Source: Acetobacter ascendens (GTDB lineage Bacteria; Pseudomonadota; Alphaproteobacteria; Acetobacterales; Acetobacteraceae). From it: a stretch of DNA of 64,000 bases. This document shows positions 9,307-27,906 of the stretch, one piece after another. The DNA is taken from positions 1,473,501 through 1,537,500 of the forward strand of contig NZ_CP015164.1 in assembly GCF_001766235.1 (NCBI RefSeq), written 5' to 3'. Within the stretch, counting starts at the first letter, position 1. Each line of letters begins with the position of its first letter. A program made the translations under genes and the position numbers. The notes below the pieces were generated by a model that was not told the origin of the DNA, made no database searches, and was given only the letters and a program-made list of their open reading frames with translations.

Positions 9307-9426
9307 TTTGTACACGGCTATAATTAAACCTAATGTTTTGATAAAAAGTATTGGATGCTATAAACCTTCGTAAAGATTTTCACGGGCAACTACTTTTATT
9401 ACCCCATTCGTCAGGTGCAGGCAAAA

Positions 9427-11643
9427 ATGCTGGAAACAAAAACTTTTCGTGGGTTACCTTTTTCATTATCTCCAGCGCTCACAGAAAAGATTTGGAATTT
9501 CCAATCTGAATCCACGCAGATCCAGCAACTTTTCCTAAGCCCTTCAGGACGTATAAAAGAACCCGACGGCTCCAACGCATGGTTGTGGAAGATTGAAAAC
9601 CATCAGCTCCTTATCCTTGCAAACGATGGAGATCTTGCATGGCAGTCAACTGGCATGGAATATCGGGCTGATGGAAGATTAGTTATTTTTCTCGAAACCC
9701 CAAAACATGACCTCTGCGCCATTTTAGAAGAGCAAGCATCTTCATCTAAGCCTCTCCTCACCGAAAAAACTACTAATGCTGTTCTCCCTACACAAAACAT
9801 GGAATCTACAGAATTAGAGGATTCTGAATTTATATTCCCCAGCAATCTAGAAATTGTTCCTACAAAAGTAAAAAAGGTGCTGATTATAGGATCCAGTATC
9901 GGCGCCTTATGCCACGAACAACTCACACAACAATATCTAGATATTCGGTTTGATTTTATACCCTACGACTTTGTAGCTCCGCTGCCTGTATCCTTACCTA
10001 TTCCACTAGAAGATTATGATTTTGTATACCTCCAGCCCTCTTTGCGCTCCATTTTAGGAGATGATATTATTTGGGGTACGCGTTTTAATGTGCCAAATTT
10101 TGCTCAGAATATTCTGACAAATGCTCAAAAGACACTCAAAAACTTTATTCAGCATGTTCTGGATTATGCCGCTTTATTCAATACTCCTTTATTAGTTTCA
10201 AACTTCCTAACTCCCCAGATTCCTCCCCGGCCTTTTTCGCGAGATCCCGGCGTTAATATGTCTGTATCCACTATTATTCAAACACTAAATGTTCTACTTG
10301 ATACAGAATTAGATAAGCATCCTCAAATAAAACTTTTGGATATGGAAGCAGTCGCTTCAATTGTTGGTAAACGTTATATTCAAGATGATACAATATATTT
10401 TAATACCCATAACGGAATCATCTTTCAGGATTGGGATGATTTTGGCCCCTTTGAACAAGGCAGCCCTCTCCCATATCTGCAAACCATTTATCCTAATAAA
10501 CACAATATTATAGGAACACTCCTTTTCCGTCAGATGATATGGGGACTACGCACCCTATGTCAGACTGACTGCGTCAAAACAGTTATTTTCAGTTTAGATA
10601 ATACGGTGTGGCGCGGAAAACTCTCAAAGAATGATTCTGGCACCCAAACTTTGCCTATGCCAAGGCAAGATGGTTGGCCAATGGGCATATGGGAAGCAAT
10701 CCAGTATTTGCGGGGGCGCGGCATAAAAGTTTGTCTTTACGCAGACGGGAATGAAGCAGATATACAAGCTCAGTGGGATAAAATCATTGAACCCAAATTT
10801 TTGGCTTTAGAAGATTTTGATTACGTTGCTGTTAATTCTGCACCTATAAACAGTATTATACCTGATATCTGTTCAAAATTTTCTGTACAGCCGGCAGAAA
10901 TTGTTTTGGTTGATGCTTCTGCCATACGTAGAGCAGCCATTACAGAATCTTTTCCTGATATACGCACTATAGGAAAAAATCCTTATCTTACCAGGCGTAT
11001 CCTGCTTTGGGCAGCAGAAACACAGGCAGATTTTAAACAAGCCGTGCCCCATAAAACAGAAAAATTAGAAATACCGCCAGCCCCTTCTGCTGCAATGCAG
11101 GCTCCAGCCGCCAATTTTACATCACAGTCACTAAAGATGTTGCAGTTTATGGAATGCAAGGTTTCTGCGCATCAGATTATTTCATCCGATGATAGGCTTT
11201 TAGAAACCCTGCCTTCTTTAATTAAAAATTCCCTGACATCAAAGGCAGAAGATGTAAATATTACTCGGGAAACTATAACCTCTTTTACATCCTTGGACTC
11301 AAAAAAAATGCTCTTAATCTTCTCCGTAAAAGACAGATTTGCTGATTACGGCCCTTCTGCGGCCATGTTTATTGATGACCATACAATAAATCGTTTCATT
11401 TTATCTGCACGTGTACACGGAATGGTTACTGAAACCTTTATGCTTTCTGAGGCCGCGCAACTTATTCGCAATCAGTTTGGTGAAGGCGATATTACAATCT
11501 CCCTTCCCATGACATCCAATATTTCCTTATTCCGAAATATGTACGCGCAAGCAGGTTTTCTACCCAAAGACCATAAAGGTGGTACTGAGGTATTTTATTT
11601 ACCTGCCGGTCTATTACCCCCTGCAAGCCCGCATGTTTTTTAA
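9427..11643 (+). CDS. FkbH-like protein with degenerate HAD active site
   Basis: About 738 residues with the FkbH architecture. An N-terminal beta-rich module (about 1-110) is followed by an SGNH-like domain beginning VLIIGSSIGA (about 150-380), a HAD-IIIC-like domain (about 385-555) and a C-terminal GNAT-like domain (about 585-738). FkbH enzymes dephosphorylate a phosphoglyceryl donor and load glyceryl units on a carrier. Here the nucleophile motif DxDxT is SLDNT (Ser-389 in place of Asp), the DDN motif is DAS, and the motif III lysine is not visible, so phosphatase chemistry should be lost. ATG 9427 is preferred (GCAGG 5 bases upstream); a GTG at 9415 is possible. It is the first gene of the AT-rich island. 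Confidence 0.72.
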   Translation: MLETKTFRGLPFSLSPALTEKIWNFQSESTQIQQLFLSPSGRIKEPDGSNAWLWKIENHQLLILANDGDLAWQSTGMEYRADGRLVIFLETPKHDLCAILEEQASSSKPLLTEKTTNAVLPTQNMESTELEDSEFIFPSNLEIVPTKVKKVLIIGSSIGALCHEQLTQQYLDIRFDFIPYDFVAPLPVSLPIPLEDYDFVYLQPSLRSILGDDIIWGTRFNVPNFAQNILTNAQKTLKNFIQHVLDYAALFNTPLLVSNFLTPQIPPRPFSRDPGVNMSVSTIIQTLNVLLDTELDKHPQIKLLDMEAVASIVGKRYIQDDTIYFNTHNGIIFQDWDDFGPFEQGSPLPYLQTIYPNKHNIIGTLLFRQMIWGLRTLCQTDCVKTVIFSLDNTVWRGKLSKNDSGTQTLPMPRQDGWPMGIWEAIQYLRGRGIKVCLYADGNEADIQAQWDKIIEPKFLALEDFDYVAVNSAPINSIIPDICSKFSVQPAEIVLVDASAIRRAAITESFPDIRTIGKNPYLTRRILLWAAETQADFKQAVPHKTEKLEIPPAPSAAMQAPAANFTSQSLKMLQFMECKVSAHQIISSDDRLLETLPSLIKNSLTSKAEDVNITRETITSFTSLDSKKMLLIFSVKDRFADYGPSAAMFIDDHTINRFILSARVHGMVTETFMLSEAAQLIRNQFGEGDITISLPMTSNISLFRNMYAQAGFLPKDHKGGTEVFYLPAGLLPPASPHVF

Positions 11644-11787: not shown

Positions 11788-12162
11788 ATGAAAAGACTAA
11801 TTATGGATTTGGATGACACTCTAACGCTTACAGATGCATCCAAGTCCTACTCTAAAAAAAGACCCAATATTGAAGTTGTTGAAAAACTACGTGAATACAA
11901 GCAGGCAGGTTTTGAAATTGTCATCCAAACTGCTCGCAATGTACGTACTTATAATGGCAATGTAGGTAAAATAAATGCAAATACGCTACCCGTTATCATA
12001 GACTGGCTACGCAAGCATGATATTCCTTTTGATGAAATCTATGTCGGCAAGCCATGGTGCGGCACTGAAGGCTTCTACGTAGATGATAAAGCTATCCGTC
12101 CTGATGAGTTTTTGAAATATTCCTCCGAAGAAATCAGGAAACTCCTGAAAATCGACAATTAA
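11788..12162 (+). CDS. Small HAD-family phosphatase (capsule-locus type)
   Basis: A 124-residue HAD hydrolase. The nucleophile motif is DLDDT with Asp-7 and Asp-9, IQTAR provides motif II, GKPWC holds the motif III lysine region, and YVDDKA holds the acidic motif IV, so the active site looks complete. There is no cap domain, so it probably acts on a macromolecular or exposed phosphate. Similar small HAD proteins occur in capsule and LOS clusters beside nucleotidyltransferases, which is the arrangement here. It has an excellent RBS (AGGAGGT) and sits 14 bases upstream of the next gene, in an apparent operon. Confidence 0.78.
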   Translation: MKRLIMDLDDTLTLTDASKSYSKKRPNIEVVEKLREYKQAGFEIVIQTARNVRTYNGNVGKINANTLPVIIDWLRKHDIPFDEIYVGKPWCGTEGFYVDDKAIRPDEFLKYSSEEIRKLLKIDN

Positions 12163-12176
12163 CCGATGGAATATCC

Positions 12177-13757
12177 ATGACGTCTTTTTCCCTCATCCTG
12201 TCTGGTGCATATGTTGACCAGGAATTAGCCATTGAATTTGGCCGTATTCCTCCTTCCTTTCTACCTATAGGCGTTACACGTCTTTACGAAACCCAGATTA
12301 AAGCGTTGTCTAAACTGGGTTCTGTCTATTTGACACTGCCTGAAGATTTTCATATTCCGCATTATGACATGCAACGATTGGAAGAGTTGGGCGCAATTAT
12401 TGTGCGTGTTCCCAGCGATCTATCTCTAGGCAATTCCATCATCTATGCACTGAACTATATTGAAACTTCAGCTGAAACCTTACGTCTACTCCACGGTGAT
12501 ACACTCGTAGAAGGATTAGACCTTGAACAAGTTGATGCTTTGGCAGTGCACCATGAAAGTGATGATTACGCTTGGGCTTCTGTTAGCGTCCAAAAAGACA
12601 ATACTGTCTCAGACTTGCAGGCAATCCAGTTAGAAGCAACCCCACCACAACCCCAGCATATTATTTGTGGTTACTTCTGTTTTTCCAAATCTCGCCATCT
12701 TGTACGGGCGCTTACGCGCACCGGAGGAAGCTTTATTAAAGGTATCGCCTTATACGCAAAGGAACATACCTTAAAAGCCATTTACCCTGAGAAATGGTAT
12801 GATTTTGGGCACCTGCAAACCTATTTCCGCTCACGCCGCAGTGTCACAACACAACGCGCATTCAATTCTCTCTACATTGATGATCGTATTGTGCGCAAAT
12901 CCAGTGATGACCATAAAAAAATGCATGATGAAGCCGCATGGCTCCAGAATGTACCTGCTGATATTAAACCGTTTACAGCACGTCTTTTAGATACGTCTGA
13001 AAACTCTTACACGATAGAATACGAATACGCACCTACCCTGTCGGAATTGTTTGTTTTTTCCAGCATAGGCAAAGCCACATGGGAAAGTATTCTAGAATCA
13101 TGCTTTGAATTTCTTTCCATTTGTCAAAAGCATTCTACACCTGAAATCAAAGGCAATGATATTCTCAAGCGCCTTGCAATAGACAAAACCTATGATCGAA
13201 TTACCCAATATTCTAAAGCGACGGAGTTTGATATTAATCATCCACTGACGCTCAATGGTAAAAAATTACCCTCTCTTAGACAAATTGCAGATGAAATGAT
13301 CAGCAATATTGATCTTTCGTCTGTTCGTAATGCATCTATTATGCATGGAGATTTTTGCCTTAGTAATATTCTTTACAACTCGCGTGCACGCCGTATTTGT
13401 ACAATCGATCCGCGCGGTTATATTCCAGTTACTGGCTCAAGCATTTTTGGCGATATTCGATATGACTTTGCCAAACTATGGCACTCATTCGGAGGGTTAT
13501 ATGACCTGATTATTGCAGGCCATTATCTTTTTGAGGCTGAAACTCCTTATAATTTCAGCATCTCCTTCCCATCAGGACCACATCATGAGTGGGTGCAAGC
13601 TGATTTCTTGCACAGGCTCCCTAATAATATAAATAAAACTGAAGTAAATTCTTTAACTGTTTTGTTGTTTGTCAGCATGCTACCACTACATGCAGACAGA
13701 CCAGATCGGCAAAAAGCTTTTATTGCCAATGCAGCTCGTCTTTATCAGCTTATATAA
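12177..13757 (+). CDS. Nucleotidyltransferase-like / APH-kinase fusion protein
   Basis: A 526-residue two-domain protein. Residues 1-230 resemble a sugar-1-phosphate nucleotidyltransferase fold (SFLPIGVTRLYETQ, HGDTLVEG) but lack the canonical G-x-G-x-R loop. Residues 240-526 carry an aminoglycoside-phosphotransferase/choline-kinase fold with HGDFCLSN (catalytic Asp-392) and IDPRG as the metal site. The kinase half looks active, and its expected substrate is a small alcohol. The gene lies between a HAD phosphatase and a second nucleotidyltransferase, so the three probably build a nucleotide-activated head group. The chemistry is inferred from folds; the substrate is unknown. Confidence 0.68.
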   Translation: MTSFSLILSGAYVDQELAIEFGRIPPSFLPIGVTRLYETQIKALSKLGSVYLTLPEDFHIPHYDMQRLEELGAIIVRVPSDLSLGNSIIYALNYIETSAETLRLLHGDTLVEGLDLEQVDALAVHHESDDYAWASVSVQKDNTVSDLQAIQLEATPPQPQHIICGYFCFSKSRHLVRALTRTGGSFIKGIALYAKEHTLKAIYPEKWYDFGHLQTYFRSRRSVTTQRAFNSLYIDDRIVRKSSDDHKKMHDEAAWLQNVPADIKPFTARLLDTSENSYTIEYEYAPTLSELFVFSSIGKATWESILESCFEFLSICQKHSTPEIKGNDILKRLAIDKTYDRITQYSKATEFDINHPLTLNGKKLPSLRQIADEMISNIDLSSVRNASIMHGDFCLSNILYNSRARRICTIDPRGYIPVTGSSIFGDIRYDFAKLWHSFGGLYDLIIAGHYLFEAETPYNFSISFPSGPHHEWVQADFLHRLPNNINKTEVNSLTVLLFVSMLPLHADRPDRQKAFIANAARLYQLI

Positions 13758-13768
13758 GGAATTTGTCT

Positions 13769-14500
13769 ATGATTGTTATACCTATGGCAGGTCTATCACG
13801 TCGATTTACAGAAGCAGGGTATAAATTACCTAAATATATGCTGCCTGTCGGCGATAATACTGTTTTTTCTCTTGCTGTTGGAAGTTTTAAAAATTATTTT
13901 TCGCAAGAAAAGTTTGTTTTTATTGCACGTGATGTAGAAAATACAAAAAGTTTTATCGCCCAAGAATGCCAAAAAATGGGCATTAAGGACTTTGAAACAA
14001 TCATTCTTGATGCTCCCACAAAAGGACAAGCAGAAACAGTTGAGCTGGGCATTGTGAGGAGCAAGTACCCCTTAGAAACCCCGTTAACTATTTTCAATAT
14101 TGACACATTCCGCAAAAATTTCTCTTTTCCTTCCGAGCCTTGGTTTGCTCATTCAGACGGCTATCTGGAAGTATTTAAAGGGACTGGACAGAATTGGTCT
14201 TATGTTGGTCCAGAGAAAAATAGTAGTGAACCGCGAGTTATTTGCACAACAGAAAAAAAACCAATATCTGATTTATGTTGCGATGGTTTGTACTATTTTG
14301 CACGTGCCTCTGATTTTCTACGGGCGCTAAAGGAAGAAAAAAAATCTCCTTCTATGCCTGAACTTTATATTGCTCCACTTTATAATCATCTTATTAAACG
14401 TGGATCTTCTATTTATTACAAAATAGTTAATAATAATGATATCATATTTTGTGGGGTTCCCAAAGAATATGATGATGTCATAAAAAATATATCTCCTTAG
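13769..14500 (+). CDS. Nucleotidyltransferase (sugar/polyol-phosphate type)
   Basis: A 243-residue protein with the nucleotidyltransferase signature near the N-terminus: PMAGLSRRF, then YKLPKYMLPV, which supplies the catalytic loop and lysine. FNIDTFRK near residue 110 gives the metal-binding aspartate. It resembles single-domain transferases such as LicC/RmlA relatives in capsule clusters, which couple CTP or another NTP to a phosphorylated compound. The ATG at 13769 is taken because AAGGA lies 7 bases before it; TTG 13763 is the alternative. It starts 11 bases after the kinase fusion and is followed by a strong hairpin. Confidence 0.8.
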   Translation: MIVIPMAGLSRRFTEAGYKLPKYMLPVGDNTVFSLAVGSFKNYFSQEKFVFIARDVENTKSFIAQECQKMGIKDFETIILDAPTKGQAETVELGIVRSKYPLETPLTIFNIDTFRKNFSFPSEPWFAHSDGYLEVFKGTGQNWSYVGPEKNSSEPRVICTTEKKPISDLCCDGLYYFARASDFLRALKEEKKSPSMPELYIAPLYNHLIKRGSSIYYKIVNNNDIIFCGVPKEYDDVIKNISP

Positions 14501-14667: not shown

Positions 14668-16809
14668 ATGATAAAGGCAAGTATGATGGATTACGAAGAA
14701 GTTCTAAAAAATCGACAAGAGGTTCTAGATCTTGTTAATGCAGGAAACATACAAGAAGCTTTTTCTCGGTTAATTGAATGCTCTTATACTTGCCCTGAAG
14801 ATAATAGCCAGCATTCTGCAGCCATTAAAGCTATTCAGGAGCAAATCATTGAAGGTCTTATCCGCCTAACGTCAGACCAAAATTATCGTGAAATTTTCAT
14901 TATTCTCAATCGTCTCATAAGCTTTTTTGGTCTTAGTCATCGTCTTTGTCTCGAAATTGGGCTTCTTAATCTATCACGCAAGATTGACCTGGATTTCCAG
15001 ATACAGTTTTTAAAAAGTTTACCGCCAGAAATACTCAATGATCCCATTATCCAACTAATCCAAGCAGAAACATTGCGCTTGACGAATAATCCTGCCGCAG
15101 CCTGCACAATTTATAATTCTCTTCCCCCCCGTGAAAGCTGGTGGCCTTTTGACCCCTTGTGGGAAAGTCTGACGCAAGGGCTTACAAAACATTTACTGGA
15201 AATCAATACAAAGTTTCTTCACAGGCAGACAGGCAATTCTACAGGATGGCATATGGAACCGCATGCCCTTAACGCTCTCATCGCAGGCCTTATTCGTCCC
15301 AATTCTGGAAATGCGAACGATTTCCGGCACCACATCGAAAGAATTATGTGGCATACCCCCGTCCCGAACACGGATGTTGGCGGTTTAACTGTTGCATTTC
15401 TTGCTACACATATCACGGACTTGGACCCTGACAAAGCTGCCATAGCCTTTCATTTGGCCGTCTCCTTTGAGAAGCGGCATGAAATTAATCTTATCCTACA
15501 AAAAGAAGAATTTATTGTTACAAAACTTGCTTATCATCCGCTTTTTATAAAATATTTTGATATTTTTTCTCAGAAAAATCTTTCTTACCGAGATAAATTT
15601 AATGATATTCTTGATATATTCCTTAAATCTTCTTTCTGCAAAAATTTTGTAGAAGGAGATATGAAAGCTTTTAACTTTAGCTCCTTGTTCAGCACGAATG
15701 TATGGGCAACAGAAGTTCTTTCTCGCTACAGAAAACGTCTGCCCCTACAAAGTATTCGGGGAGTGCCATTCCTTGCGCAACCACGTCATGCCATTTTTCC
15801 TAAAGTAGGGGGAGAAAACCACCTCTTTATTGGTATATTTGGCCAAATGCGTGATCCACGTGGCAGTTTTTCCAAAGTTATGGAATATCTCTATAAAGAT
15901 ACACAAGATTGGCGGGCTAAAGGCAAAACGGTTAGTATCGGCATTTCCACTTGGGATCAGACGGGACAGAAAAAGATTGAAGATGGAAGCCCTACGAGCG
16001 AATTTGCTCATCGGGTTCCTGAACCTATCAAGAAAATTCTAACCGAACATCATATCCATACACTTGCAGAGTTCCGTAATCTTCTACCCTCCACGGCAGA
16101 AGCCATTCAGAAAGCATCTTATTCTAATGAAACTGTAAGTCTGGAGCTTCTTCACGAAATTGCCCAAAGTTGCGGTTTTGATAGTTCTGATATTTTCATT
16201 AATATTTCTACAGAAAACCAATATATGGATGATATCGGACGTGAGTTCCGTGCATTTTACAAAAATGCTGGCTCAGGCGTGGAAAATCAGGCGCGTATGT
16301 GGCACCGTATTGCAGGTTTATATGATCTGACGCACCAAGCTACAGAACGAAAAGGTGCCGCTATAGGCACAATGGCCCTTATACGCCCTGATGTGCTATT
16401 CGAGAATTCTTCCATTTCCAACTTGGCAAAAACCACTGCTACTGAAACATCTGCGCCTACAGCGGTATGTGACTTTGACCCACAAGCATGCTGGATTGAA
16501 GGTGTAGGAGACCGTTACTTCGCGGGGAGCGCTCAGGCCGTAGCAAGAACTTTTGATGCCAAAGACTTGATCCTACAAATTATTCGGGATCCCACATTAT
16601 CGGAACTCTATCATGATCGGCCTTTCTGGCACCGTTTTGCACAGACCGTTTTTTACGAAAGCGATGTATTCTTGCAAAACTCCACCGCCATTCATATGCG
16701 GTTTCTAAGGCAGAACATTGATCTTAATATTCTGAAAGCCGCTTTAAAAGCCGATTACGAGCAGACGACAAATGAAAGCATAAAAAAACTCATCCAAGAC
16801 CACATATAA
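14668..16809 (+). CDS. Large protein of unknown function, possible glycosyltransferase-like
   Basis: About 713 residues, no signal peptide and no transmembrane segment visible. Residues 1-350 are mostly helical with an Ala/Leu pattern suggestive of TPR-like repeats (GNIQEAFSRLIEC, NNPAAACTIYNSLP). After residue 380 the sequence changes to alternating strands, with LFIGIFGQMRDPRGS opening a Rossmann-like half and MALIRPDVLF near residue 575. An opening IGIFGQ-R pattern plus a later R-P-D motif occurs in some uncharacterised surface-polysaccharide glycosyltransferases; this is only a weak resemblance. The start may be 14683 or 14686, where AAAGG is better spaced. Hairpins lie on both sides, so it may be transcribed alone. 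Confidence 0.6.
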   Translation: MIKASMMDYEEVLKNRQEVLDLVNAGNIQEAFSRLIECSYTCPEDNSQHSAAIKAIQEQIIEGLIRLTSDQNYREIFIILNRLISFFGLSHRLCLEIGLLNLSRKIDLDFQIQFLKSLPPEILNDPIIQLIQAETLRLTNNPAAACTIYNSLPPRESWWPFDPLWESLTQGLTKHLLEINTKFLHRQTGNSTGWHMEPHALNALIAGLIRPNSGNANDFRHHIERIMWHTPVPNTDVGGLTVAFLATHITDLDPDKAAIAFHLAVSFEKRHEINLILQKEEFIVTKLAYHPLFIKYFDIFSQKNLSYRDKFNDILDIFLKSSFCKNFVEGDMKAFNFSSLFSTNVWATEVLSRYRKRLPLQSIRGVPFLAQPRHAIFPKVGGENHLFIGIFGQMRDPRGSFSKVMEYLYKDTQDWRAKGKTVSIGISTWDQTGQKKIEDGSPTSEFAHRVPEPIKKILTEHHIHTLAEFRNLLPSTAEAIQKASYSNETVSLELLHEIAQSCGFDSSDIFINISTENQYMDDIGREFRAFYKNAGSGVENQARMWHRIAGLYDLTHQATERKGAAIGTMALIRPDVLFENSSISNLAKTTATETSAPTAVCDFDPQACWIEGVGDRYFAGSAQAVARTFDAKDLILQIIRDPTLSELYHDRPFWHRFAQTVFYESDVFLQNSTAIHMRFLRQNIDLNILKAALKADYEQTTNESIKKLIQDHI

Positions 16810-16867: not shown

Positions 16868-16894
16868 TTTGATTTTTACTAGATGGATATTCAT

Positions 16895-18487
16895 ATGACC
16901 CAAAATATATCTTTATCCTTAAACTCGTTACTTGAAAAAAACTCACAAATATCATCGCAATCTAAAAAAACTCTCCAAATTCCATCGGAAGCTTCTTTTA
17001 TTGAAAGCACGCATGGAAGTGGTTTAGGTGCTATAAACCGTCTTATTTTGCAAGGGAATGCCAAGGTTCAGAACGGTCGGCGTAAAGGTATTCATCCAAC
17101 CTATTTAGCGCCACCATCCATGTTTCCAGCTACTGTGAGATCAGAACATCTCACAGCTTTCCATAAAGCTTGTCGGAAAAAACAAGCAACCATTATGGTT
17201 ATGGGAGATAGTATATTTGCAACCGCAAGTGATATGGTTTGCCATACAGAGAATGCTACTTATTCATGGTTGGAAACACTCCAACAACAAATCCCACATG
17301 TAAGATTTACATTTATCAATGCAGCTGCAGGTGGACGGTCTTGGAAGGATATGAACTCACAAGTTACTCCAGCACCCGAATGGATAAATCCACCACAAAA
17401 CATGAATTGGAAAGAAGCGGTCCGGTATTATCAGCCCGATCTGCTTCTTCTGCATAGTGGTGGTAATGACGTTGGAAATTTCAACCCTCTTGATGTGAAA
17501 GAATTAATCGCTTTCTTTTTAAGCGCACCTAAATCACCATCAATTATTTTAGGCTTAACGCATCACCCTTCTCAGGCATCCACTATTAATGGTTATGCAA
17601 CACAAGAATATCAGGAAGGTCTGGACGGTATCATCAAGTGGTTGCGTACATATGCGCAACGAGAAGGATTTGGTTATCTGGATTTTCACCGCTGGCATAG
17701 CATGCGGCGTGATGGATTTGATCCCTGTGAACTCGCTCTTACACGTGTAATCCCCGAAGAAGGATCTGGCCTACCATCTTTTGGCTCTTATATTTCGGAA
17801 ACTCCCCATAATTATTGGGATTTTCCTACCTGCGAAAACGAAAATCAGATTGCTGCCAATAATTGTACAGATTTTGCTCTTGCATTCGAATTAGAAAAAA
17901 AGCCTGCTTTCCTTTCTCTGAATCTCAGCTCTGGATACTCTAGCGCATTTCATCCACCCTACTCCAATAAACTACATGTATTTTTTGACGATGACAGCGG
18001 TTTTATTGCTTATTCTTGGAGTGATGGCACACACCCAGATGAAGATAAAAAACGAATAACAAATATTCCTATTCCGTGTTTCCCTGCTCTTTTTAATATT
18101 ATGGTTAAGGGAAGCCGCCTTGTTTTTTCAATATGGGTGCCTCTTTCGCATACAAACTGGCAACCAGAACATCTCAACACTCTAGGCACAGGTTATCAAT
18201 ATGTTTGCGATGAAACTATAATTAGATTTGGAAGTCCCTTTACCCCTCGCCTAGAATGGGCGGGCTACAATAGATTGCGTATTTTTAATCTCTGCGTTGC
18301 TAATGCTTCTGTAGTTAGTAAAAATGCAGTCAGAAATATGCCTGATCGCACAGACAATGATTTGTATGAACACACCTACGCAGCCGGAGGTTCTGGCCAT
18401 TATCATATGAATGCTTATGGCGTGCGAGATATTCTTACTCCAGTATTTAGAGCGCAAAATTGGAGCGAAAATGGCTTTCCAACATAA
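16895..18487 (+). CDS. SGNH/GDSL-type hydrolase with large inserted domain
   Basis: A 530-residue protein with SGNH blocks: MGDSIF (Ser-106), a Gly block in NAAAGGRSW, HSGGNDVG (Asn-191), and a C-terminal GHYHMNAYGV near 501-509 that matches the usual D-x-x-H-x-N-x-x-G block and would supply His-504. An alternative DFH at 263-265 lies earlier. Between the Asn and C-terminal His blocks is an extra beta-rich region of about 200 residues. SGNH enzymes are esterases or O-acetyltransferase partners acting on glycans and lipids. No signal peptide is seen, which suggests a cytoplasmic role or export by another route. ATG 16895 is favoured by GGA spacing; ATG 16883 is possible. Confidence 0.72.
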   Translation: MTQNISLSLNSLLEKNSQISSQSKKTLQIPSEASFIESTHGSGLGAINRLILQGNAKVQNGRRKGIHPTYLAPPSMFPATVRSEHLTAFHKACRKKQATIMVMGDSIFATASDMVCHTENATYSWLETLQQQIPHVRFTFINAAAGGRSWKDMNSQVTPAPEWINPPQNMNWKEAVRYYQPDLLLLHSGGNDVGNFNPLDVKELIAFFLSAPKSPSIILGLTHHPSQASTINGYATQEYQEGLDGIIKWLRTYAQREGFGYLDFHRWHSMRRDGFDPCELALTRVIPEEGSGLPSFGSYISETPHNYWDFPTCENENQIAANNCTDFALAFELEKKPAFLSLNLSSGYSSAFHPPYSNKLHVFFDDDSGFIAYSWSDGTHPDEDKKRITNIPIPCFPALFNIMVKGSRLVFSIWVPLSHTNWQPEHLNTLGTGYQYVCDETIIRFGSPFTPRLEWAGYNRLRIFNLCVANASVVSKNAVRNMPDRTDNDLYEHTYAAGGSGHYHMNAYGVRDILTPVFRAQNWSENGFPT

Positions 18488-18547: not shown

Positions 18548-20524
18548 ATGAATATCAAAATTTCTCTTATCTCTATGAGCGCTCTTTTATTTCCTTCTGT
18601 TGGAATTGCACAAACATCATCGCATTCTATTTCGGAATATTCGACAACATCTATTGTGCCCTGTATATGGGTAAAAGATGCCACAGGCAGCGGATGGCAA
18701 ATCGGTGATATAGCAACCGTTTATAATGATGGCTCTGTTATAGAAATTACAAAAGTTAACAAAAACGGATCTATTGCAGATTTTATCGTAAAGAAATATG
18801 CTAAAAATCTAAAAAACTATCAGGGAAAGCAGTATTGGAGCCCTAATCCTCACGCTGAAAATGATGCAGATCCGCTCCATAAAGCTGCATGTTTTCGTGT
18901 AAACACAACTTCACTCAATGTCTTTCCTGCAGAAACGTCTCAAAGTATAATGAATGACGCAAACACATCTGCAAAACAAAAAAATATTCAAACACTATTT
19001 GATCTTGTCTTTTCTGCACCTTCTCCATATTTTTATTTAGATAAAACATTAAGCTATTCTTTTGAAAATAGTCCTCCCCTTACACTTCCCAATTATCTAG
19101 ATAAATCAACAACGCCCTACACATCAGCATCTGCCGTTATCAATATGCTAGAGGCAGATACTTCCATGTTTCCTCAATCCACATTATCAGGTCTTTCCTT
19201 CCCATACGCTGGAGACAGCTTTCCCACTCTGAGTGTTCCTCCTCGGGATTTACCAACTCTGACATTAGGCCGTGTCGATCAAGGACGTGTTGACAATACA
19301 GCACCTTCTTTCTCGGTCAATTATGTAAATAATGATCCGGTACATGGCAGAAATTCCATAGACCATATCAATAAACGTAATATTGATATTAATACGATTG
19401 TTACCCCAGAGGCGATTTCTTCAACACGCAGCTTGAGCAACCTTCTTGAAGATGATGGAATGCAAGGATACGGGCAGCAAAACTATGCTTTCCAAAATGT
19501 TTTACACAAAAAAGGCTTGAGCTGGTCTTGGGCGACAGCTGAGGAACTAGATGAAACCCAAGGCCTCGACTATACTTACGGAGATCGCAATGCTCCGTCA
19601 TTCGGGCAGCTTTCAACTGTAGAATTTGTAGCAGAACACAACTTAAACGCTGTTGGTTATGATTTAGCAGCCACTAGCTATGCTTCACAAACAGCCCACC
19701 GCATCAATCAACTCGCATCCAATGGCCTTTGGGAACAATATGCGCCGTTCTGGAAACCATATACACTCTTCGCCCCTCACCAGATGATTCGTGTTGTAGA
19801 TCCGCGTTCCGGTATGCAGCATCTATTTGTAAGTGACCAAGGAGGCACGAGTGGCGGGATTTTGCCTCGTTTTGAGTTTACTGGAACACGCAAGATTAAC
19901 GATGCGTCGGTTAATTGGTTATATCTTGGTCCATTAAAAGCACAAATCGGCCTTGCTTTTTCTGCTTCATCTAATTGTCATATCCCTACATATCCTGAGA
20001 ACTACAACGGAAATAAAGTACCTGCCTGCTCAGAAATTGGCGCCGCTTTTGCTGCTCCTGCACATATTTATAATACGGTTTTTGATGCTTCTGCTTCTGT
20101 ATTCGTTCAACCCGGCATTCACTCATGGGCTCGAACTCAAGCAGACACTTATCTAGATTTGACCGCAGATGGTACTTTTTCTAGTCTTAACAAACACATT
20201 TTGGGCTACGAAAGCAAAGAGCATGCCTTGGAATATCGTATAAAAAAAGAAGAAAATAATAAAATTCAAAATAATAATTCAATTTTTTCTATAAAAGATA
20301 CTGGTGAATTGACTATTCAGTCTTTAACCACCAAACATGACGCAAATATCAATGGCAAAGTCACCATTGGGGATACTCTTAAACTACCGTTCAAGAGCAA
20401 AGAGGAAATAAAACAAACTACATCAGCAAAACCTGGAGAAATTATTTACGATACAACAGATGATGCCCCAGTAATTTACACAAAGCACGGCTGGAAGATC
20501 ATTCCATTAATAAGTTTGAAATAA
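18548..20524 (+). CDS. Secreted protein with tail-fibre-like C-terminus
   Basis: A 658-residue protein with a typical signal peptide (about 21 residues, cleavage near GIAQ). The middle is rich in Ser, Thr and Asn and has no motif I recognise. The last 75 residues (TGELTIQSL, then NGKVTIGDTLKLP, then KPGEIIYDTTDDAPVIY) have the pattern seen at the ends of bacteriophage tail-fibre and receptor-binding proteins, which often trimerise. No phage genes surround it. It follows the SGNH gene by 60 bases with an AAAGGA RBS, so the two may work together at the cell surface. Function unknown. Confidence 0.62.
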   Translation: MNIKISLISMSALLFPSVGIAQTSSHSISEYSTTSIVPCIWVKDATGSGWQIGDIATVYNDGSVIEITKVNKNGSIADFIVKKYAKNLKNYQGKQYWSPNPHAENDADPLHKAACFRVNTTSLNVFPAETSQSIMNDANTSAKQKNIQTLFDLVFSAPSPYFYLDKTLSYSFENSPPLTLPNYLDKSTTPYTSASAVINMLEADTSMFPQSTLSGLSFPYAGDSFPTLSVPPRDLPTLTLGRVDQGRVDNTAPSFSVNYVNNDPVHGRNSIDHINKRNIDINTIVTPEAISSTRSLSNLLEDDGMQGYGQQNYAFQNVLHKKGLSWSWATAEELDETQGLDYTYGDRNAPSFGQLSTVEFVAEHNLNAVGYDLAATSYASQTAHRINQLASNGLWEQYAPFWKPYTLFAPHQMIRVVDPRSGMQHLFVSDQGGTSGGILPRFEFTGTRKINDASVNWLYLGPLKAQIGLAFSASSNCHIPTYPENYNGNKVPACSEIGAAFAAPAHIYNTVFDASASVFVQPGIHSWARTQADTYLDLTADGTFSSLNKHILGYESKEHALEYRIKKEENNKIQNNNSIFSIKDTGELTIQSLTTKHDANINGKVTIGDTLKLPFKSKEEIKQTTSAKPGEIIYDTTDDAPVIYTKHGWKIIPLISLK

Positions 20525-21031: not shown

Positions 21032-21391
21032 ATGGCTCAAGAAATCCTGATTGGCGTTGAACGCCGTCGCCGCTGGTCGGATGAACGCAAGCTTGCGATA
21101 CTGGCTGAAGTTGGTGTGGACGGGGCAAGTGTATCGGATGTGGCCCGTCGGCATGACCTGACCCGTCAACATCTTTACCAATGGCGGACGTCTTTCCGCC
21201 ACAGACTGTCTTCCCCGGATCAGTCTGTGGCGTTTGTTCCTGTCGCTGCAGTGAAGACACCTGCTCTGGTCTCTGGCGATGATAATGAAGGGCTGGCCAT
21301 TATGCTGCGTAATGGCCGCAGTATCAAGGTGACGGGACATCCTGCAGAAGAGTTTCTGGCGAAGATCATCCGGATTGCCGAGACAGCATGA
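21032..21391 (+). CDS. tnpA: IS66-family accessory protein TnpA
   Basis: A 119-residue protein with an N-terminal helix-turn-helix of the IS66 Orf1 type (RRRWSDERKLAILAEV, then SDVARRHDLTRQHLYQWR). The RBS GGGAGG is 10 bases upstream of the ATG. Its stop overlaps the tnpB start in ATGA, the usual IS66 translational coupling. The gene itself is intact, but the element is truncated. Confidence 0.88.
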   Translation: MAQEILIGVERRRRWSDERKLAILAEVGVDGASVSDVARRHDLTRQHLYQWRTSFRHRLSSPDQSVAFVPVAAVKTPALVSGDDNEGLAIMLRNGRSIKVTGHPAEEFLAKIIRIAETA

Positions 21392-21787: not shown

Positions 21788-23173
21788 TCAGATGGCCTGC
21801 CGGAGCCTTCGCAATCGTGCATGAGCGAGGGCGAATTCATGCTGACAGGGGAACATGTCCGGCATGGACAGGACAATCCGACGGACGCTGAGCGTTACAC
21901 GTGTCGCGATTTTGAGCAGTCGTGCGCGTATGGTGCCACAGGTCGCCGTCTCCAGGCTGGTCTGGCCAAGGGCCAGTCTTTGCAGAGCGGTCAGCAGGAC
22001 ATAGGCTGCGGCCGAGAACCACAGCCGGAGCTGGTTGGCCCGGATGGTGTGGGACGAGGTCCTGTCTGAGAACAGATCCATCTGGCATTCCTTGATGCGG
22101 TTTTCCATATCCCCGCGTGCGCAGTAAATCTGTTCGTAGAGATGGCGGGGGTCGGACATTCCCTGCGGTAGCGTGGTGACAATAAAGCGATGATAGCGGT
22201 TGCCGTGGCGCCATTCGGCCTTGGCCACCACCCGCCTGCGGCGCGTCCAGCTGTCCTTTGTGATCCAGTCAAAGGAGGCGAAACCGCGCGCAGCTCTGCC
22301 TGTCGTGGCGGCTTCGTCACGAACCTCAGCGGACAAAGAGGCAATCCGGTCATACAGGCGGGTGTTGCCTGCAAGCCCGAACAGGAAGTCAACGTGGTTG
22401 TCTTCGCACCATGTCATCAGACTGTCCCGGGCGAAACCGCTGTCCCCACGCACCAGGATACGCACCCGGGGCCAGCGGCTCCTGATCTGCTTCACGATCC
22501 GGCGGATGTCTGCCAGTGCTTCCTTCCCCGGGTCCCTGTCTGCCGTGCGCAGGGTAGCGCTGAGGAGATGGTCCCCGCAGAAGATGTATAACGGCAGATA
22601 GCAGTTATGGCCGTAATATCCATGAAAGGCCCGGCCTTCCTGATGGCCATGGATACGGTCATCGGTGGCATCCACATCCAGAACGATCCGGGCGGGTGCG
22701 CGCTCATGCTGGTCCATGAAAAGCGTCACGAACAGGGTAGCCAGGGCCTCATGATCAGCAATGATGCGGCAGTAACGATCTGCCTGCTGCCCACTGCGCT
22801 CCAACCGGTTCAGCGTGGATTTTCCTGCCAGTGCCGCACAGTTGGCCCGGCTTCCTGACAGACGTCCCGATACCAGACCCATGACAGGATCATGACGTAA
22901 AGCGTCATGGTCATTAAGGTCTTCATAGCCCAGTGCCAGGTCCATGATCCGCTGACGGACAAGGTCTTCAACCCGGTATTCCACAAAGCCGGGATGCCGT
23001 TCATCGCGAAAACAGGCAGCAAAGCGGCGGCTGAGACCCAGAATGTCATCAGCCTGCTTCACCAGAATGACGCCCCCATCCGAACTCATGCGACCCCCGT
23101 CAAAACGGGCCACAACACGCCGTCCACAGGAGGCTGGAAACTCATACGCGCCTGCGCTACACTCTGTCTGCAT
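21788..23173 (-). CDS. IS1380 transposase, copy 1
   Basis: A 461-residue DDE transposase of the IS1380 family, uninterrupted. It carries FDGGRMSSDGGVILVKQAD near the N-terminus, the LDVDATDD acidic motif near residue 167, RGDSGFARD near 245 and ENRIKE near 350, consistent with an intact catalytic core. It differs from copy 2 by one residue that I can see (Asp versus Gly in QRIM-D/G-LALG). The start codon lies in the arm of a hairpin described separately. Confidence 0.95.
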   Translation of the reverse strand: MQTECSAGAYEFPASCGRRVVARFDGGRMSSDGGVILVKQADDILGLSRRFAACFRDERHPGFVEYRVEDLVRQRIMDLALGYEDLNDHDALRHDPVMGLVSGRLSGSRANCAALAGKSTLNRLERSGQQADRYCRIIADHEALATLFVTLFMDQHERAPARIVLDVDATDDRIHGHQEGRAFHGYYGHNCYLPLYIFCGDHLLSATLRTADRDPGKEALADIRRIVKQIRSRWPRVRILVRGDSGFARDSLMTWCEDNHVDFLFGLAGNTRLYDRIASLSAEVRDEAATTGRAARGFASFDWITKDSWTRRRRVVAKAEWRHGNRYHRFIVTTLPQGMSDPRHLYEQIYCARGDMENRIKECQMDLFSDRTSSHTIRANQLRLWFSAAAYVLLTALQRLALGQTSLETATCGTIRARLLKIATRVTLSVRRIVLSMPDMFPCQHEFALAHARLRRLRQAI

Positions 23174-23729: not shown

Positions 23730-25832
23730 ATGCTTACTCCAATAAATGAAATTCTAACCATTGAACAATTAACCGGTCATTCTTGGGCTTGGGGACCAGC
23801 TAACCATCCTGTGCAATCTACCACATTTGGATTTACCCCAGATGGCCTGATTACAGGGTGGGACAATCATCCCCAAGAAATAAGCTGGAAACTTGATGAT
23901 AATGGCTTAAAAATATTTTCTGCGGAAGGTAAGTGTTCTTGGATATTTAATATAGCCGATAAATTAGGAGACGAAATTCGCCTATTTGGAAGCTGTCAGC
24001 AACCAGGCTTCCAATATTTGGTTTATCAACTCATTGCGCCGTTGGCTCCTCCCAAAGCTAAAGAGGAAGGTATCCGCTTGGTTATCTGGGATCTAGATGA
24101 CACCTTCTGGAACGGTACTTTGTCTGAAGGTGAAATTACCCAAATTCCAGAAAACATTAATATTGTAAAAGAATTAAACCGCAGGGGGATTGTAAATGCC
24201 ATCTGCTCTCGGAATGATTTTTCGAATGTAGAAAGCAAGTTAAAAGAGCTTGGTGTTTGGGACGAATTTATCTTCCCGCGCATTGAATGGGGGCCTAAAG
24301 GCCCGCTGATTAAGGACATCGTTGAGCAAATTCAGCTACGTCCTGCCAGCATTTTATTTATTGACGATAATGTAACAAACCTTAACGAAGCACTGCACTT
24401 TGTTCCGAGCATTAACGTCGCTGAGCCAACCATCATCCCAACCCTATTGGCAGACCCCAAATTTAAAGGTAAGCCCGACCCAACTTGCAAACGCCTCAAA
24501 CAGTATCGTGTGCTGGAAGCAAAGCAGAAAGATAAGTCTGCTATGGGCGGCGATAACATCAGCTTTTTGCGCGACAGTAATATCCGGATTAGTTTCCATA
24601 CAGATATTGAACAGCAATTCCCGCGTATTCATGATCTTGTAAATCGTACAAATCAGCTGAATTTTACAAAAAAGCGCTGGCCGGAAGATATTGAAGAAGC
24701 GAGAAAAATTTTTGAAGCCGAATTACAGGAAGAGTTCAACAGCAACGTAGGTTACGTAAAAGTATCTGATGCTTATGGTAACTATGGGATTTGCGGTTTC
24801 TATTTCATTCAGCGTGATACTTGCAAGCACTTCCTGTTCTCATGCCGCACCATGAATATGGGCGTGGAGCAAGCTGTATGGCAAAAACTTGGACGCAAAC
24901 ATATTGAGATTCAAGGTAAAGTAGCTAGCCGCCTAGATATGCCGCTGGTTGATTGGGTCAGCTTTGTACCTGATATTGACCATGCAGATGATGGTATAGC
25001 TGGAACAGCACCGCGACCTACAGTATGTTTGCGTGGTGCTTGTGATATGATGATGACAGCGCACTTCCTACGGACAGATGTAGAAACCAAAGAAGAATTC
25101 AATTACCCGTATGAAGGTTGGGAAATTGCGACGACTCTACGTTCTGCACTAGTCAATGAAGCACTTGAACGTCCGATCAACCGCCAAATTATTGCGGCAC
25201 TTCCTGGTATTCCTGAAAATAGGTTTGCCACAGCCACTTGGGATGAAACAGCGGATGTTTATGTATTTACATTTGGCCAAGAAACTTTCCATGGGCTCTA
25301 CCGTTCTAAAACCACAGGCATGACTATCCCTATGGGAACTTACGCGCTTCCTTATTACTTGCCCGGTGGCCCATTTGAGAAGTTCGATTATACCAGCGTT
25401 CCTTATGAGGAAATTCAAGACAAACTCCCCAACACGACTAGGGATCAGTGGAACTTTTTTAGATCAGAATTTTCATTTATTGGTGGCTTTAACAAAGATA
25501 TATTTGTTAAAGATTTGAGAACTTTATTCACCCGCCTAAAACGTGCTGGAAAAACCATTATCATTGTTGGCCTAAACAGCAAAGTGGGACGAGACTTGGG
25601 TATTCTTTCTGCTTTCGGTCAGGTTAACGAACTTACACTACCTGTAGCCCGCGAATTTGGGGTTGATTTCATAGATGCGCATCAATTTGTGAAATCTGAA
25701 AATGATCTGGCAAAAGATGGAAGTTTTGGCGGTTCTCATTATGAGCGCCGCGTATATAAACAGATATCTGATGCCATTTTGAATATTGTGCACAACAAAA
25801 TCAAAAATATGAAAACTATTTTGCCTTACTAA
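23730..25832 (+). CDS. FkbH-like HAD-IIIC phosphatase with intact active site
   Basis: A 700-residue protein. An N-terminal beta-rich module (1-100) precedes a HAD-IIIC domain with DLDDT (Asp-121, Asp-123), CSRND, WGPKGP and FIDDN (about 211-214), all catalytic elements present. A GNAT-like domain follows (about 330-420, VSDAYGNYGICG and FLFSCRTMNMGVEQA), then a C-terminal SGNH-like domain (about 435-690, opening LRGACD and closing DGSFGGSHYERR). FkbH proteins form glyceryl-carrier intermediates from a phosphoglyceryl donor; no ACP or PKS is present here. It shares its module set, in altered order, with the degenerate FkbH-like protein at 9427. It lies beyond the IS nest and was probably once adjacent to the rest of the island. 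Confidence 0.8.
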   Translation: MLTPINEILTIEQLTGHSWAWGPANHPVQSTTFGFTPDGLITGWDNHPQEISWKLDDNGLKIFSAEGKCSWIFNIADKLGDEIRLFGSCQQPGFQYLVYQLIAPLAPPKAKEEGIRLVIWDLDDTFWNGTLSEGEITQIPENINIVKELNRRGIVNAICSRNDFSNVESKLKELGVWDEFIFPRIEWGPKGPLIKDIVEQIQLRPASILFIDDNVTNLNEALHFVPSINVAEPTIIPTLLADPKFKGKPDPTCKRLKQYRVLEAKQKDKSAMGGDNISFLRDSNIRISFHTDIEQQFPRIHDLVNRTNQLNFTKKRWPEDIEEARKIFEAELQEEFNSNVGYVKVSDAYGNYGICGFYFIQRDTCKHFLFSCRTMNMGVEQAVWQKLGRKHIEIQGKVASRLDMPLVDWVSFVPDIDHADDGIAGTAPRPTVCLRGACDMMMTAHFLRTDVETKEEFNYPYEGWEIATTLRSALVNEALERPINRQIIAALPGIPENRFATATWDETADVYVFTFGQETFHGLYRSKTTGMTIPMGTYALPYYLPGGPFEKFDYTSVPYEEIQDKLPNTTRDQWNFFRSEFSFIGGFNKDIFVKDLRTLFTRLKRAGKTIIIVGLNSKVGRDLGILSAFGQVNELTLPVAREFGVDFIDAHQFVKSENDLAKDGSFGGSHYERRVYKQISDAILNIVHNKIKNMKTILPY

Positions 25833-26520: not shown

Positions 26521-27906
26521 TCAGATGGCCTGCCGGAGCCTTCGCAATCGTGCATGAGCGAGGGCGAATTCATGCTGACAGGGGAACATGTCCGGCATGG
26601 ACAGGACAATCCGACGGACGCTGAGCGTTACACGTGTCGCGATTTTGAGCAGTCGTGCGCGTATGGTGCCACAGGTCGCCGTCTCCAGGCTGGTCTGGCC
26701 AAGGGCCAGTCTTTGCAGAGCGGTCAGCAGGACATAGGCTGCGGCCGAGAACCACAGCCGGAGCTGGTTGGCCCGGATGGTGTGGGACGAGGTCCTGTCT
26801 GAGAACAGATCCATCTGGCATTCCTTGATGCGGTTTTCCATATCCCCGCGTGCGCAGTAAATCTGTTCGTAGAGATGGCGGGGGTCGGACATTCCCTGCG
26901 GTAGCGTGGTGACAATAAAGCGATGATAGCGGTTGCCGTGGCGCCATTCGGCCTTGGCCACCACCCGCCTGCGGCGCGTCCAGCTGTCCTTTGTGATCCA
27001 GTCAAAGGAGGCGAAACCGCGCGCAGCTCTGCCTGTCGTGGCGGCTTCGTCACGAACCTCAGCGGACAAAGAGGCAATCCGGTCATACAGGCGGGTGTTG
27101 CCTGCAAGCCCAAACAGGAAGTCAACGTGGTTGTCTTCGCACCATGTCATCAGACTGTCCCGGGCGAAACCGCTGTCCCCACGCACCAGGATACGCACCC
27201 GGGGCCAGCGGCTCCTGATCTGCTTCACGATCCGGCGGATGTCTGCCAGTGCTTCCTTCCCCGGGTCCCTGTCTGCCGTGCGCAGGGTAGCGCTGAGGAG
27301 ATGGTCCCCGCAGAAGATGTATAACGGCAGATAGCAGTTATGGCCGTAATATCCATGAAAGGCCCGGCCTTCCTGATGGCCATGGATACGGTCATCGGTG
27401 GCATCCACATCCAGAACGATCCGGGCGGGTGCGCGCTCATGCTGGTCCATGAAAAGCGTCACGAACAGGGTAGCCAGGGCCTCATGATCAGCAATGATGC
27501 GGCAGTAACGATCTGCCTGCTGCCCACTGCGCTCCAACCGGTTCAGCGTGGATTTTCCTGCCAGTGCCGCACAGTTGGCCCGGCTTCCTGACAGACGTCC
27601 CGATACCAGACCCATGACAGGATCATGACGTAAAGCGTCATGGTCATTAAGGTCTTCGTAGCCCAGTGCCAGGCCCATGATCCGCTGACGGACAAGGTCT
27701 TCAACCCGGTATTCCACAAAGCCGGGATGCCGTTCATCGCGAAAACAGGCAGCAAAGCGGCGGCTGAGACCCAGAATGTCATCAGCCTGCTTCACCAGAA
27801 TGACGCCCCCATCCGAACTCATGCGACCCCCGTCAAAACGGGCCACAACACGCCGTCCACAGGAGGCTGGAAACTCATACGCGCCTGCGCTACACTCTGT
27901 CTGCAT
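26521..27906 (-). CDS. IS1380 transposase, copy 2
   Basis: A 461-residue intact DDE transposase, identical to copy 1 over nearly all of its length, with Gly instead of Asp in QRIMGLALG. The acidic motifs (LDVDATDD, RGDSGF, ENRIKE) are present. Together with copy 1 it provides an active transposase and 1.6 kb of direct-repeat homology around the FkbH gene at 23730. Confidence 0.95.
   Translation of the reverse strand: MQTECSAGAYEFPASCGRRVVARFDGGRMSSDGGVILVKQADDILGLSRRFAACFRDERHPGFVEYRVEDLVRQRIMGLALGYEDLNDHDALRHDPVMGLVSGRLSGSRANCAALAGKSTLNRLERSGQQADRYCRIIADHEALATLFVTLFMDQHERAPARIVLDVDATDDRIHGHQEGRAFHGYYGHNCYLPLYIFCGDHLLSATLRTADRDPGKEALADIRRIVKQIRSRWPRVRILVRGDSGFARDSLMTWCEDNHVDFLFGLAGNTRLYDRIASLSAEVRDEAATTGRAARGFASFDWITKDSWTRRRRVVAKAEWRHGNRYHRFIVTTLPQGMSDPRHLYEQIYCARGDMENRIKECQMDLFSDRTSSHTIRANQLRLWFSAAAYVLLTALQRLALGQTSLETATCGTIRARLLKIATRVTLSVRRIVLSMPDMFPCQHEFALAHARLRRLRQAI

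Follow-up and report, generated by a model that had tools for sequence, protein, structure and literature searches.

Does the gene that lies between groEL and amtB in the window (the whole 64,000-nucleotide stretch of DNA analysed here) encode an FkbH-family enzyme, or a protein that has kept the fold of the family and lost its chemistry? OzmB is an FkbH-family glyceryl transferase/phosphatase, and in FkbH/OzmB a cysteine carries the glyceryl group. The family (TIGR01686) comprises glyceryl transferase/phosphatases that load glyceryl derived from 1,3-bisphosphoglycerate onto carrier proteins, as was proposed for Mad7 and Mad14 (PMC7489565).

The FkbH homologue and its domains

The open reading frame is uninterrupted from a GTG at 9415 (742 aa) or an ATG at 9427 (738 aa) to the stop at 11643, and its GC content is 41% as against 56% for the adjacent groEL. 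The gene and its domains are as follows.

9427..11643, + strand: predicted FkbH-like pseudoenzyme; open ORF with a weak TIGR01686 match
9427..9867, + strand: N-terminal domain, residues about 1-147, beta-rich; equivalent segment in a second FkbH-family protein of the window (FkbH2), strands in a low-confidence model
9868..10563, + strand: SGNH-like domain, residues about 148-379; GSS for the family GSC, with H328 and D320/D321 retained (alignment)
10564..11028, + strand: putatively dead HAD-IIIC domain, residues about 380-534; D389S, S439A, K474I and D497A (alignment)
11194..11640, + strand: C-terminal FkbH acyltransferase (GNAT-like) domain, residues about 590-738; TNQFN absent, C661A (alignment, about 70 family members)

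The protein scored 39.9 bits against the TIGR01686 cut-off of 146.65, over residues 387-715 of the 742-aa form, but this cut-off is weak as a sole criterion, since FkbH2, whose motifs are intact, also falls below it (129.2 bits). A Pfam search of the protein gave zero matches, leaving the SGNH label of the first-pass annotation without Pfam confirmation, and a PDB search with the single sequence gave no match. The AlphaFold2 model, built from an alignment with one relative, had a pLDDT of 47.8, which is too low for a fold search. The closest intact relative in the same genome is the FkbH at G000:C1:2308654, 0.8 Mb from the gene (36% identity, E 4e-125), and residues 13-73 of FkbH2 match the N-termini of intact FkbH proteins encoded at the groEL locus of other genomes (tblastn). 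By its homology to family members in all of its domains, and by the tree described below, the protein is an FkbH homologue by descent.

Loss of catalytic residues

Alignment to relatives showed that all four HAD motifs are broken. Motif I reads SLDNT as against DLDNT or DLDDT, motif II YADGNE as against SKND (CSKND), motif III NSAPINS as against NWxPK, and motif IV VDASA as against VDDNP. The HAD nucleophile Asp at residue 389 is replaced by Ser, the motif II Ser at 439 by Ala, the motif III Lys at 474 by Ile and the second motif IV Asp at 497 by Ala, while the acid/base Asp at 391, the Thr at 393 and the first motif IV Asp at 496 are retained. An alternative Asp acting as nucleophile was considered and rejected: none aligns at this column in the protein or its closest orthologues, and no common Ser takes its place, since L006 and L041 carry Gly where the window protein and L035 carry Ser.

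As a base rate, FkbH-family sequences were collected from plasmids of Streptomyces and Rhizobium as well as within the genus, within the family and in 240 genomes sampled over the class. With few exceptions, the roughly 70 distinct sequences obtained preserve the nucleophile, SK, Lys and DD; the nucleophile is absent in this set only from the clade of the window protein, described below, and from L054. The plasmid search matched only distant HAD-IIIC relatives, all of them intact. The losses that the first-pass annotation had read from the sequence (SLDNT, DAS and NSAPINS) are thus borne out.

The other domains are affected as well. In the acyltransferase domain, NSLTSKAED replaces the family KTNQFNTTG and LSARV replaces MSCRV, so that the SCR cysteine is lost; the family, FkbH2 included, shows hardly any variation in TNQFN and SCR. 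The earlier statement that fold landmarks and domains remain accordingly holds for the GNAT-like domain as a fold and fails for its motifs. In the SGNH-like domain, Cys157 is replaced by Ser, so that the GSC of almost all intact relatives becomes GSS. In the HAD region, 42 of the 61 family-invariant residues are retained, and the losses lean to core catalytic residues (4/7 vs 13/61; hypergeometric 0.03, for a core set picked post hoc). Catalytic residues have been lost while fold residues were retained, as expected of a pseudoenzyme, and since the protein fails every catalytic criterion tested, it should not be classed among the FkbH glyceryl transferase/phosphatases.

A degenerate clade under purifying selection

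A survey of 49 genomes of the genus turned up degenerate orthologues in G320 (91% identity to the window protein), G210 (53%) and G307 (about 41%), so that four Acetobacteraceae species, with G000 being that of the window, carry the degenerate form. The four sequences are monophyletic in a maximum-likelihood tree, with support of 98-100 with or without the HAD columns; the stem branch is long, and the exact attachment point of the clade is to be taken with caution. The copies in G000, G320 and G210 are full-length, while that in G307, which has a GC content of 64% within a GC-rich locus, ends after the HAD domain. All four members carry S439A, D497A and E501R, as well as C157S with H328 and D320/D321 retained, and the acyltransferase motifs of G210 are degenerate like those of the window protein. 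A sequencing error or an isolated wreck is ruled out, as the orthologues at 91% and 53% identity share the losses.

Between the window and G320, dN/dS is 0.19 for the whole gene (95% bootstrap 0.12-0.28) and 0.135 for the dead HAD domain (95% bootstrap 0.05-0.30); dS to G210 is saturated, which precludes a ratio for that pair. The intact FkbH paralogue of the same genomes has a value of about 0.07 between G000 and G320 (ratio of the dN and dS values). The pseudoenzyme is less constrained than the intact paralogue, yet not free of selection. Compared with its G210 orthologue, the window protein is best conserved in the HAD domain, at 62% identity against 53% overall. At the same time, the pseudoenzyme is the fastest-diverging gene of the island, with 53% identity to G210 as against 69-87% for its neighbours, which also fits relaxed selection. 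From these comparisons, the pseudoenzyme appears to be conserved across species under purifying selection, with relaxed selection possible on the older branches.

Further losses at the groEL locus

A second loss of the nucleophile was found in G295, where L054 has SLDNT, SKDD, NRLPK and VDAN. In the tree, L054 groups with L007, in which the SCR cysteine is lost and the HAD nucleophile is intact, and not with the window clade; the loss in G295 is therefore independent. L054 is probably part of one full gene, its N-terminus lying at the end of another contig (L055) with overlapping sequence. The groEL-locus FkbH of G030 is half-lost, with the SCR cysteine gone and the HAD nucleophile intact, and this protein, although outside the clade, also has Ser at the Cys157 position. 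The groEL-locus FkbH genes of G295 (L067, L072) and G030 (L064) degenerated separately. Each of the species in which a copy is degenerate (G000, G320, G210, G307 and G295) also has an intact FkbH paralogue.

The island and the proposed partner FkbH2

The gene order groEL, pseudoenzyme, EcbF, NT_APH, NTase, 713-aa protein, SGNH534 is common to G000, G320 and G210, whereas G313, G321 and G324 have groEL, FkbH2 and an intact FkbH at the same site. The genes downstream of the pseudoenzyme in the window, and FkbH2, are as follows.

11788..12162, + strand: EcbF/BcbF-type capsule phosphatase (EcbF), DLDDT intact; TIGR01689 194.9 bits, above the cut-off of 162
12177..13757, + strand: protein with a C-terminal APH-type kinase domain (NT_APH); PF01636 just above cut-off
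13763..14500, + strand: sugar-1-phosphate nucleotidyltransferase-like protein (NTase); sub-threshold NCBIfam matches, module conservation
14668..16809, + strand: 713-aa protein ("TPR713", a name of convenience); 69% identical in G210, 30% in G283
16883..18487, + strand: GDSL/SGNH hydrolase of 534 aa (SGNH534); PF13472 and PF00657 above cut-off
23730..25832, + strand: FkbH2, FkbH-family protein with HAD motifs and SCR cysteine intact; different domain order

The N-terminal part of the protein encoded at 12177-13757 is nucleotidyltransferase-like by inspection, and the 713-aa protein has no match in Pfam or NCBIfam, TPR included. Positions 18548-20524 encode a putative secreted protein of 658 aa without a Pfam match, the C-terminal segment of which recurs in several otherwise unlike proteins of the genus. 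EcbF, NT_APH and NTase (11788-14500) form a three-gene module with EcbF first, adjacent in most genomes examined, and the module occurs in many Acetobacteraceae genera in contexts other than FkbH (L108-L125). EcbF as a specific substitute for the lost HAD activity was rejected because the module is this widespread in other contexts.

FkbH2 had been described as carrying intact DLDDT, WGPK and DDN, which it does. Its domain order is beta domain-HAD-acyltransferase-SGNH as against beta domain-SGNH-HAD-acyltransferase in the pseudoenzyme, and it is, by sequence comparison, a member of a different subfamily. No FkbH2 could be found in either G210 or G307, both of which carry the pseudoenzyme; its absence from G210, a draft assembly in about 140 contigs, is not absolute, and no FkbH2 remnant was seen before amtB in this genome. 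A transposase gene interrupts FkbH2 in G320 (L071 1192-4601), with junctions that read as a 4-bp AGCT target duplication, and the pseudoenzyme of this genome is intact. In G283, which belongs to another genus, FkbH2 (46%) adjoins a relative of the 713-aa protein, and no match of the pseudoenzyme query accompanies it. Taken together, these occurrences show that FkbH2 and the pseudoenzyme are separable, and FkbH2 as an obligate partner was rejected.

The G283 island (L175 6469-14167) encodes FkbH2, the relative of the 713-aa protein, and nucleotidyltransferase-like and HAD proteins. In the window, FkbH2 is flanked, in the manner of a composite transposon, by a pair of near-identical transposase ORFs that point the same way (21788-23173 and 26521-27906), and an IS66-like first ORF is found by inspection at 21032-21391.

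What the pseudoenzyme may do

The reading that we prefer, and to which we give about an even chance, is that the protein has been kept for a non-catalytic binding role in a surface-glycan or phospho-metabolite cassette. The FkbH chemistry that would have been lost is the capture of an activated acyl phosphate (e.g. 1,3-bisphosphoglycerate), its dephosphorylation and the transfer of the acyl group onto an acceptor or carrier. Since selection appears to have kept a folded protein, this protein would most likely act by binding, as a scaffold, a ligand-binding or a regulatory subunit, and the chemistry would fall to proteins that are intact, for instance the EcbF phosphatase, FkbH2 and the FkbH paralogue at a distance of 0.8 Mb. 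A scaffold or regulatory role with a partner other than FkbH2 is possible. A bolder version would make the clade a dedicated non-catalytic FkbH branch, dead in all catalytic domains and serving as a binding or regulatory subunit in surface-glycan assembly of the Acetobacteraceae, with the further independent inactivations at the same locus as a sign that FkbH scaffolds were recruited more than once to a non-enzymatic task; this we regard as doubtful.

The most serious alternative, although in our judgement an unlikely one, is a decaying relic, with an intact FkbH elsewhere covering the function and the groEL-locus copy drifting towards a pseudogene. Such decay would leave behind what is seen here: an intact paralogue in all five species with a degenerate copy, a nucleophile lost independently in G295, a copy degraded in part in G030, the truncation in G307 and the fastest evolution of the island. 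Against it, there are three full-length ORFs at 53-91% identity with a dN/dS of 0.19, the dead HAD domain is at least as constrained as the remainder, and the new residues are common to all four clade members. It is more improbable that a new enzyme has arisen, in which activity persists in the SGNH-like domain, with Ser for the family Cys, while the HAD and acyltransferase domains play a structural part. C157S throughout the clade and the kept H328 and D320/D321 would suit this idea, but a Pfam GDSL match, a canonical GDS block and DxxH are absent, the SGNH-like domain is not more constrained than the HAD domain, and G030, outside the clade, has Ser at this position too.

Most improbable is the model of the first-pass annotation, in which FkbH2 is the active enzyme and the pseudoenzyme its dead partner. 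Both are encoded in the same island, FkbH2 is intact, and FkbH2 neighbours an intact groEL-locus FkbH in G313, G321 and G324. However, FkbH2 is split in G320 and went undetected in G210 and G307, the two proteins differ in subfamily and domain order, and in G283 FkbH2 travels with the relative of TPR713 instead. The first half of that model, a pseudoenzyme, stands, with losses common to related species and a dead domain under purifying selection, while co-occurrence speaks against the partnership.

Comparison with known systems

Pseudoenzymes in general are already well known. A literature search on FkbH and pseudoenzyme found no paper in the collection covered, and searches on HAD pseudophosphatases and Acetobacter HAD-IIIC gave nothing useful. 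The groEL locus offers a natural series, from intact (G313/G321) through half-lost (G030) and separately lost (G295) to long dead but maintained (G000/G320/G210) and truncated (G307), and thereby a test of how a multidomain enzyme becomes a non-enzyme. The label 'HAD-IIIC family phosphatase' may mislead on function.

The pseudoenzyme has the fold landmarks and the domain content of the FkbH family and is 36% identical to the intact member of the same genome, but it lacks the HAD nucleophile, the motif II-IV residues, TNQFN and the SCR cysteine. The closest solved relative of the family profile, PDB 3slr (BF1531, uncharacterised, HAD-IIIC domain; E 5e-21), keeps DLDNT, SKN, NWENK and DDNP, which the pseudoenzyme does not. 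FkbH2 resembles it in the HAD-IIIC and acyltransferase-like domains and in a similar N-terminal domain, and differs in its intact motifs and C-terminal SGNH-like part. The EcbF/BcbF protein (TIGR01689, 11788-12162), encoded by the next gene downstream, belongs like the pseudoenzyme to the HAD-IIIC superfamily; in contrast to it, this protein is single-domain, has DLDDT intact and belongs, in many genera, to a module that lacks FkbH.
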